From Prochlorococcus sp. AG-402-K04 (GTDB lineage Bacteria > Cyanobacteriota > Cyanobacteriia > PCC-6307 > Cyanobiaceae): a stretch of 64,000 nucleotides of DNA. The DNA lies in assembly GCA_003216895.1 (NCBI GenBank), contig QCID01000005.1:1-64000 (forward strand). The letters are read 5' to 3'. Under the pieces are notes generated by a model. The model did not search any database. It had not been told where the DNA came from and saw only the letters and a list, made by a program, of their open reading frames with translations. Positions 36,515 through 39,298 of the stretch are shown piece after piece; positions within the stretch are counted from its first letter, which is position 1; each line of letters begins with the position of its first letter. The position numbers and the translations under genes are program-made.

Positions 36515-37237
36515 TTATATGTTTTCCCAGTTTAATTTAAAACGTCTTTTTACAGATTCCCTTAAAAGAGGCTTAACGTCACAGACTTTGATACCAGGTA
36601 TCCAATCACTTATTTTACCTATTTTCACTTTATCCAGTCCACAAGGAATTATCTTCTCAAAGCCAACAAGATCACACTCTACATTTAGAGAGAATCCATG
36701 TTGAGTCACCCATCTCTTGCAACCAATTCCTATTGAACCAACCTTTTTATCTTCACACCAAACTCCTGTAAAGCCATCTACTCTCTTTCCCTCTATTCCC
36801 AACAATTTAAGAACATCAATCAGCACTTGTTCCAATTCTCTTAAATACCAAGATAAATCTTTTTTGTGAAGACATAAATTTAAAACCAAGTATCCAACGA
36901 TCTGCCCTGGCATGTGATGCGTGACTTCACCTCCTCTCTTAATACAAAAAACAGGTATAGGAGATTTATTTTCTTCGAATAACAAATTTTTTTTGTCACT
37001 GCCTGTACCTATTGTGAAACAAGAAAAATGTTCAAGAAACCATACTGCTTGAGGTGAGAACGGTTCCTCAATAAGGCTTTTCTGAAAATTCTTCTGCCAA
37101 CCTAACGCAGTCTCAAACGGCACAATATTTTTAGGTTCAAAAAGAAAAGCGGAAGAAGATTGTGCAAGTTGAGGGGTTAGATCTAAGTTGATATTAGGCC
37201 CTGATTCTGGCGAAACAGAATGAAGCTTCTTATTCAT
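36515..37237 (-). CDS. lipB: Octanoyl-[ACP]:protein N-octanoyltransferase
   Basis: LipB moves octanoate from ACP to lipoyl domains such as PdhC's. The 240-residue protein has the RGGEVTHHMPGQIVGY loop, the lysine loop KKVGSIGIG, and the catalytic cysteine in IIPCGLDKV. HGFSLNVECDL is also conserved. ATG at 37237 gives about 30 extra polar residues before the fold, so a later start is possible. As written, its first codons overlap the first codons of the divergent hpf gene by 18 bases. Confidence 0.93.
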   Translation of the reverse strand: MNKKLHSVSPESGPNINLDLTPQLAQSSSAFLFEPKNIVPFETALGWQKNFQKSLIEEPFSPQAVWFLEHFSCFTIGTGSDKKNLLFEENKSPIPVFCIKRGGEVTHHMPGQIVGYLVLNLCLHKKDLSWYLRELEQVLIDVLKLLGIEGKRVDGFTGVWCEDKKVGSIGIGCKRWVTQHGFSLNVECDLVGFEKIIPCGLDKVKIGKISDWIPGIKVCDVKPLLRESVKRRFKLNWENI

Positions 37238-37804
37238 GGACGCAATCTTGAATTAACTCCATCACTTCGTGATTACACCAAAACAAAAATTGATAAAGCA
37301 ACTCACAATTTTCAAGAAATGGTGCAAGAAGCTGATGTCCACCTCTCAGTAGCTCGGAATCCTCGCGTGCCTCAACAGACAGCGGAGGTGACTGTTTTTG
37401 CAAACGGAACAGTGATAAGAGCCCAAGAAAGAAGTGAAAATCTTTATGCAAGCATCGACTTAGTAGCAAATAAACTTGCACGACAATTACGTAAATACAA
37501 AGAGCGACATAACAGTCACAATGTTCATAATAATCAATCAACCAAATCAGTCCAAAACGAAGAAACTCAAAATTTCTCTTCCTCAGATAATTCACTCATT
37601 GAAGGGAAAGAACCACATCTACCTAGCCCAGGAGTAAGACGCAAATATTTTGAAATGGATCCTATGACCATTGAGCAAGCAAGAGTCCAATTAGACCTGA
37701 TTGATCATGACTTCTATTTATTTAGAGAGGAAGAAGGATCCTCTTTACGAGTCATCTATAAGAGAAATCACGGAGGATATGGCGTAATCCAAGAAAAAAT
37801 TTAG
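37220..37804 (+). CDS. hpf: Ribosome hibernation promoting factor, long form (LrtA)
   Basis: Long HPF dimerises 70S ribosomes into inactive 100S particles in the dark or under starvation. The 194-residue protein has the N-terminal S30AE domain (MKLLIHGRNLELTPSLRDY to about residue 100) and a polar linker. The C-terminal dimerisation domain has KYFEMDPMTIEQARVQLDLI at about 140-159. In cyanobacteria this is the light-repressed transcript lrtA. It starts an apparent operon with the deoC-like gene and recO. Its promoter must lie within or beyond the 5' end of lipB. Confidence 0.95.
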   Translation: MKLLIHGRNLELTPSLRDYTKTKIDKATHNFQEMVQEADVHLSVARNPRVPQQTAEVTVFANGTVIRAQERSENLYASIDLVANKLARQLRKYKERHNSHNVHNNQSTKSVQNEETQNFSSSDNSLIEGKEPHLPSPGVRRKYFEMDPMTIEQARVQLDLIDHDFYLFREEEGSSLRVIYKRNHGGYGVIQEKI

Positions 37805-37814
37805 TACTAATCAA

Positions 37815-38498
37815 ATGAGTAAAAACAGCTTGGAAGAAGCTCATGCCAATATATCTAATGTGATTTATCAAGCAGTCCTAAACCCTCATTTTGATAAAGA
37901 AATGATTGTTCAGGTTTGTGATGCATCCAAGCAAAATGGCTTTGCTGGTTTATGTACAAGCCTTTCAAATTTACCAATTGCACGTGAAAGATTAGGCAGC
38001 AAAAGCACTACAAAATTAATCTCTGTAATTGCCTTTCCTTTTGGGTTCATTCCAACTTCTAACAAACAACAAGAAGCCGAGTATGCGATAGAGCAAGGAG
38101 CAGAAGAGTTAGATATTGTTCCAAATTATTTTGCATTAAAAGAAGGGAATATAGAACTATTTTCTGAGGAAATAAATCAAATAAGTGAACTTGGTATTCC
38201 AGTAAGAGTAATAATTGATGCAAATATATTCTTAAACTTATCAAAACTTTCCATCGCAATAGATGCTTTAATCGATGCGGGCGCAATTGGAATTCAAATA
38301 GGTAATGGTTTTGGTCCATCTATCTCAAAGGATCAAACTAATCATGTCTCAAAAATTGTTAAAAATCGCTGCTCAATTAAAACTGTTGGAGGTATTAAAA
38401 CTTTGGATCAAGCAATAGAAATAATTGAAGCAGGCTCAACATATATTGGAACAAGTTTTGGTTTTGAAATTGCTCAAGAACAAAAGGGAAAGGAGTAA
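37815..38498 (+). CDS. DeoC-like protein lacking the Schiff-base lysine
   Basis: This 227-residue TIM-barrel protein aligns along its length with deoxyribose-phosphate aldolase. ELDIVPNYFALKEGN holds the Asp (D100) matching E. coli D102, and SIKTVGGIKT holds K189, matching K201. But the Schiff-base lysine position (VKTSTGF in DeoC) reads IQIGNGF here, with Gln161, and the N-terminal DHTLLKP is YQAVLNP. The normal retro-aldol reaction is therefore unlikely. It sits between hpf and recO, 10 bases after hpf and sharing one base with recO's ATG, so it is actively maintained in an operon. Confidence 0.85.
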   Translation: MSKNSLEEAHANISNVIYQAVLNPHFDKEMIVQVCDASKQNGFAGLCTSLSNLPIARERLGSKSTTKLISVIAFPFGFIPTSNKQQEAEYAIEQGAEELDIVPNYFALKEGNIELFSEEINQISELGIPVRVIIDANIFLNLSKLSIAIDALIDAGAIGIQIGNGFGPSISKDQTNHVSKIVKNRCSIKTVGGIKTLDQAIEIIEAGSTYIGTSFGFEIAQEQKGKE

Positions 38499-39298
38499 TG
38501 AGTGTAAGTCAAAGGATGAAAGGACTGTCTTTAAAAGTTGGGCCTCTCGGTGAGAATGATAGGCTTTTAACCTTACTTAGTGAAGAAAATGGAATATCAC
38601 GTCTTGCAATACCAGGAGCAAGAAAACCTAAAAGCAGACTTGGAGCAACATCTCCTTTTAATTTTTTAGATTTACATATAGTCGGAAAAAAAAATCTTAG
38701 AAGAGTTACACAAATAAAGATTCTTAAGAGTTTTGGGGATCTTGGAAAAAGCATCGAAACACTTTCAGCCGCACAAGCAATTTCGGAGCTAGTTATGGTT
38801 ATGGTTGGGTATGAAGATCCACAAAAAGATTTACTGAGACTGGTATTAATTCATTTAAATAGACTTAATGACCTACATAAAACAAAACTTAATTCATTAG
38901 AAGCTTTAGCAATAAGTATTCAAGCGTGTATTCATTTATTGGCTCTAGGCGGATATTGCTTACCACTGCAAACCTGCTGTTATTCTGGTTCCAGACTTAT
39001 ACCCCCTATTGGAGAATGGAGCTGGAAGTGCAGTTTTATTCCTCAAGAGGGTTTTGCTATTGGAACAATTCCTAATTCAAACGCTGAGCTGAATCCATCT
39101 GAACTTGCTTTACTTCAAAGACTATTACTAGAAAAAGTACCTTTTCACAGTAATGGAAAATTATTAGGTCCTAAAAATGTCTGGTTAAAACTACTGAGAA
39201 TTGTTGAAACCTGGATTGAAACTCATTTACAAAAAAAAATTACATCTCTTCAAATGATGAGAGAAGTAATCATTAGTAATGATCTAGATACTAAATAG
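38498..39298 (+). CDS. recO: DNA repair protein RecO
   Basis: RecO helps load RecA onto SSB-coated DNA in gap repair. The 266-residue protein has the N-terminal OB fold (GLSLKVGPLGENDRLLTLLS, IPGARKPKSRLG) and a helical C-terminal domain. Several Cys are grouped around CLPLQTCCYSG and WSWKCSF, a likely remnant of the usual zinc site. The ATG at 38498 overlaps the preceding stop in TAATG, showing coupling with the deoC-like gene. Confidence 0.93.
   Translation: MSVSQRMKGLSLKVGPLGENDRLLTLLSEENGISRLAIPGARKPKSRLGATSPFNFLDLHIVGKKNLRRVTQIKILKSFGDLGKSIETLSAAQAISELVMVMVGYEDPQKDLLRLVLIHLNRLNDLHKTKLNSLEALAISIQACIHLLALGGYCLPLQTCCYSGSRLIPPIGEWSWKCSFIPQEGFAIGTIPNSNAELNPSELALLQRLLLEKVPFHSNGKLLGPKNVWLKLLRIVETWIETHLQKKITSLQMMREVIISNDLDTK

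Follow-up and report, generated by a model that had tools for sequence, protein, structure and literature searches.

A DeoC-fold protein without the Schiff-base lysine throughout a clade of picocyanobacteria

The deoC gene of Prochlorococcus sp. AG-402-K04 encodes a protein that has the fold of the aldolase DERA and carries glutamine where the enzyme has its Schiff-base lysine. As judged by comparison of homologous sequences, the loss of this lysine is real, clade-wide and of single origin, at the base of what we call the Gln clade, and the picocyanobacterial protein probably has a different job from DERA. The reading we favour, at slightly better than even odds (about 0.55), is that the aldolase pocket lost its Schiff-base lysine in a single rebuilding and has been retained because it binds phosphosugars or carries out non-covalent chemistry. 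The protein of this clade is annotated and counted as a working DERA although its catalytic lysine is gone. We take deoC of Prochlorococcus NATL2A to be the orthologue of the gene studied here. A published pathway table places the NATL2A gene under sugar degradation (PMC5974335), and no description of the Gln variant was found in the literature searched. A single lysine loss shared by a whole clade, with a lysine-bearing sister in the same operon, is a clean natural example of what may be the repurposing of an enzyme, in hosts that are among the most abundant photosynthetic cells.

The window, that is, the whole stretch of 64,000 nucleotides analysed, contains the following features:

37220..37804, + strand: hpf/lrtA, ribosome hibernation factor, directly upstream of deoC
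37815..38498, + strand: DeoC-fold protein of 227 aa without the Schiff-base lysine, a pseudo-aldolase candidate (from the ORF, TIGR00126 and the model fold)
37869..37871, + strand: Gln19 codon; the sister clade and most other cyanobacterial DeoC have His; altered in the same clade as Gln161
38112..38114, + strand: Asp100 codon; aligns with E. coli Asp102
38295..38297, + strand: Gln161 codon CAA; corresponds to Lys167 of E. coli DERA; motif I-Q-I-G-N-G-F-G, strand beta6 (residues 159-162)
38304..38306, + strand: Asn164 codon; Ser/Thr in lysine-bearing relatives; altered in the same clade as Gln161
38379..38381, + strand: Lys189 codon; aligns with E. coli Lys201; strand beta7 (residues 187-191)
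38498..39298, + strand: recO; its start and the deoC stop share one base

The deoC reading frame is intact, and its product is, in the predicted model, a full-length DeoC-fold protein. Against NCBIfam TIGR00126 (deoC) it scores 119 bits, just past the cut-off of 117.3, which several members of the Gln clade miss; against Pfam DeoC it scores 12.3 bits, far under the cut-off of 23.8. The nearest solved structures by sequence are DERAs (E 2e-26 downwards). The model, for which 83 homologues were used, has a mean pLDDT of 95 and aligns with 1mzh over 214 residues at 1.2 A (Z 32.9), and its top structural matches are all DERAs, so that both the TIM-barrel DeoC fold (Z 33 to 1mzh) and the family profile place the protein in this family. 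By fold the protein belongs with DeoC; it should not be filed as a DERA ahead of a measured activity. The window's genome (74% complete) gave no other DeoC match that could be a second, canonical deoC, and the complete genomes of relatives likewise have a single copy. A search for phage-borne copies returned only distant matches, from Firmicutes phage records and faecal samples.

In DERA, Lys167 forms the imine with the assistance of Lys201 and Asp102 (PMC6244999; PMC8403123), and exchange of Lys167 abolishes function according to a review (PMC6244999); the ordinary DERA mechanism is therefore unavailable to the Gln161 protein. The preliminary description of this DNA had read the Schiff-base lysine as replaced, with Asp100 and Lys189 retained, and alignment to solved DERAs bears out both points: Gln161 sits on E. 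coli Lys167, and Asp100 and Lys189 on Asp102 and Lys201. It had also singled out the N-terminal motif YQAVLNP, which is correctly read and is unusual only at Tyr18 and Gln19, Ala20 and Asn23 being present in ordinary cyanobacterial DeoC as well. The refuting case that it named, a lysine from another strand in the same place, is not seen: by predicted secondary structure and alignment, no lysine has moved to another barrel strand. A relocated lysine elsewhere was rejected: Lys67 sits where strand 3 begins, Lys84 belongs to a helix, and Lys189, the sole lysine besides Lys67 on the barrel strands of the model, is the only one well placed. Of the positions in the phosphate-binding loops of DERA (G171, G204, G205, G236, S238, S239), Gly165, Gly192, Gly193, Gly212 and Ser214 are kept; at the Ser239 position the window has Phe215 and the Gln clade varies, as do other cyanobacterial DeoC. 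The protein thus resembles the solved DERAs 1mzh, 6d33 and 1jcl in its whole-length fold (Z 27-33), in the equivalents of Asp102, Lys201 and Ser238 and in the phosphate-loop glycines, but departs from them in its glutamine, in further clade-wide pocket changes and in its sub-cut-off Pfam DeoC score.

We compared about 190 cyanobacterial homologues. Among the 139 sequences of the window's family, 85 have Gln at the catalytic position, 53 Lys and one Ile: Gln is found in 85 of the 86 Gln-clade sequences, the fixation of Gln161 across the picocyanobacterial clade that had been named beforehand as a test, and Lys in 53/53 sequences of a sister, Cyanobium-like clade, as well as in 36 of 37 other cyanobacterial loci. 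Since glutamine recurs at this frequency and both of its codons are in use (CAA 78, CAG 8), chance or sequencing error is ruled out as its source. In a tree of 177 rows built without the motif, all Gln sequences of the family fall into a single clade, of 79 rows (SH-aLRT 99), and a long branch (0.98) leads to the family as a whole; a careful tree of 60 rows, also built without the motif, gives support of 100/99 and a single Lys-to-Gln change. All named loci within the Gln clade are Prochlorococcus, and the clade takes in all named Prochlorococcus loci; genome size and GC lead us to infer that marine Synechococcus falls in it too and that the clade with lysine is Cyanobium-like. The gene is present in 139 of 151 family genomes and in 94/94 of those that are near-complete (at least 90%), nearly always in one copy, and no internal stop interrupts it in any of the 139.

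Further differences accompany the lysine loss. The Cyanobium-type DeoC (LKTGSGF clade), the nearest relatives outside the Gln clade, have the same hpf-deoC-recO order and share Pro103 and Gly163 with the window protein, but retain Lys161, His19, Lys131, Glu135 and Ser164. Near-fixed differences between the Gln and lysine clades occur at eight positions: the changes H19Q, K131R, E135D, K161Q and S164N, and further differences at 50, 72 and 186. Four of the eight fall among 21 pocket positions, mapped by alignment from E. coli DERA residues, some of them drawn from papers; the corresponding hypergeometric p of 0.005 is indicative only, as the pocket list was set after the conservation table had been viewed. 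Within the Gln clade, entropy is 0.75 bits in the pocket versus 1.53 elsewhere (permutation p 0.0001), with the Gln161 column among the least variable; the pockets of the lysine clades are tighter, at 0.33 and 0.44 bits. Position 100 is Asp in 81% and Glu in 18% of the clade, and Lys189 is kept in 96%. Median dN/dS of deoC per genus (Nei-Gojobori) is 0.20 in the window's genus, 0.21 in a genus of 1.7-Mb genomes, and two further Gln genera have 0.05 and 0.13; it is 0.13 and 0.12 in two lysine genera, and hpf and recO range from 0.04 to 0.21. Purifying selection, with dN/dS well below 1, had been put forward as a sign of a new role and is indeed what is seen, the median in the window's genus being about 0.2.

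Ten bases separate the end of hpf (37804) from the deoC ATG (37815), and no clear Shine-Dalgarno sequence was found upstream of deoC. Base 38498 is common to the deoC TAA and the recO ATG, so that the stop/start overlap described earlier for this hpf-deoC-recO operon is correct. Same-strand neighbours are nearly constant in the family, with hpf upstream of deoC in 138/139 loci and recO downstream in 138/139. In other cyanobacteria recO follows deoC in 29/37 loci, and hpf was found beside deoC in 0/37. As the recO pairing is widespread and the hpf pairing is confined to the family, the deoC-recO link is ancient and hpf was added to it within this family; the hpf linkage is accordingly as old as the long branch to the family. 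At 37220-37237 the start of the hpf ORF overlaps by 18 bases that of a divergent ORF (36515-37237, - strand), presumably LipB-like by eye, and one of these ORFs may really begin at a more internal codon.

We looked for deoB and deoA, the partner genes of deo nucleoside catabolism, in 59 cyanobacterial genomes, lysine-bearing ones among them, and found no DeoB above cut-off and no match to PYNP_C (thymidine phosphorylase C-domain); the PNP_UDP_1 family is present in all cyanobacterial genomes tested. Because DeoB and PYNP_C are missing even where DeoC looks intact, their absence does not separate clades, and a loss of deo partners specific to the Gln clade was rejected.

Under the favoured reading of a rebuilt pocket, ordinary Schiff-base aldolase chemistry would have been lost once, in the ancestor of marine picocyanobacteria, and the altered pocket (Gln19, Arg131, Asp135, Gln161, Asn164) was then retained, with the predicted barrel intact, in the hpf-recO operon. 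The ligand may be a phosphorylated C3-C5 sugar or aldehyde, bound without a covalent imine: the conserved glycine loops are those that bind phosphate in DERA, Gln161, Asn164 and Gln19 would bind the ligand's carbonyl or hydroxyl groups, with Asp100 and Lys189 as polar or acid-base partners. The outcome would be either a non-covalent enzyme, of isomerisation or elimination type, or a ligand-binding protein, and variation at Asp100 together with occasional loss of Lys189 leads us to lean slightly towards binding. A DERA barrel performing non-imine chemistry has a parallel in the designed Kemp eliminases KE70 (3npu, 8for), which are close structural matches to the model but are artificial and use other catalytic residues and another substrate. 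Retention for something other than ordinary deoxyribose-phosphate cleavage, the overall interpretation given in the preliminary description, is well supported by the sequences, with the amendment that Lys189 could still be a substitute nucleophile in most members; ligand sensing or a different reaction, which it suggested, would be candidate roles. A bolder version is a long shot: that the metabolic aldolase turned, in the marine picocyanobacterial ancestor, into a non-covalent sensor of phosphosugars, or into a new enzyme, working with Hpf in darkness or starvation, and was kept in every lineage since.

The main rival to a rebuilt pocket, which we consider unlikely, is that the protein is still a class I aldolase whose Schiff base has shifted to the neighbouring strand, with Lys189 (beta7) as nucleophile. 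The prevalence of this lysine in the clade, its being the only well-placed one in the pocket and the retention of Asp or Glu at position 100 agree with such a rescue of aldol chemistry, which could tell against the rebuilt pocket. Laboratory evolution of KDPG aldolase reportedly produced an active variant in which lysine had become glutamine and the next strand carried a new lysine, and we count this in favour of the rival; the case shares with ours a glutamine in place of lysine on one strand and a lysine on its neighbour, but the aldolase is a different one and its second lysine is new, whereas that of the window protein is ancestral. Three of the 79 distinct Gln-clade sequences, however, have Gln, Gln or Thr for Lys189 and so lack both lysines in otherwise intact genes, and Lys131 and His19, conserved in lysine-bearing relatives, are altered in the same clade. 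Moreover, Lys201 of E. coli DERA does not compensate for the loss of Lys167 (PMC6244999).

Two other explanations look to the operon. It is distinctly improbable that the protein senses a small molecule, a sugar phosphate of central carbon metabolism, and acts on Hpf or ribosome hibernation in the dark. The near-universal hpf linkage in the family, not found at the other cyanobacterial loci, is what such a sensor would suggest, and transcripts of NATL2A deoC become enriched within the first hours of prolonged darkness, whether the cells grow axenically or in co-culture (PMC5974335); NATL2A hpf, however, is not enriched in co-culture, adjacency and shared transcription do not amount to interaction, and the Cyanobium-like clade has the same operon with its lysine intact. 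The most doubtful of the three is a decaying enzyme retained only through translational coupling of its frame to recO. The two genes do overlap or almost touch in the Gln clade, DERA is conserved but non-essential in S. elongatus PCC 7942 (PMC5464585), and the weaker pocket conservation than in the lysine clades, like the 18% Glu at position 100, could also fit partial decay rather than rebuilding. Against decay stand the dN/dS range of 0.05-0.21, the absence of internal stops, the invariant pocket glycines and a Gln161 that is near-invariant even in very small genomes.

Three smaller observations concern the same residues. Scattered members of the Cyanobium-like clade (L099, L102, L116, L123) carry Gln, Glu or Ser at the Lys201 position, the Schiff-base lysine always being retained. 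Another cyanobacterial lineage (L178:1486-2139 in G186, and L211 in G291) has independently lost both DERA lysines and the Asp; Gln, His and Asn take their places in both genomes examined from that family, and in G186 the deoC homologue L178 is followed 18 bases later by recO. Within the Gln clade, the 1.7-Mb, 30% GC genus (L133-L137), which is probably high-light Prochlorococcus, has a very long branch (2.99), the motif FQFGDGF and Glu replacing Asp100.
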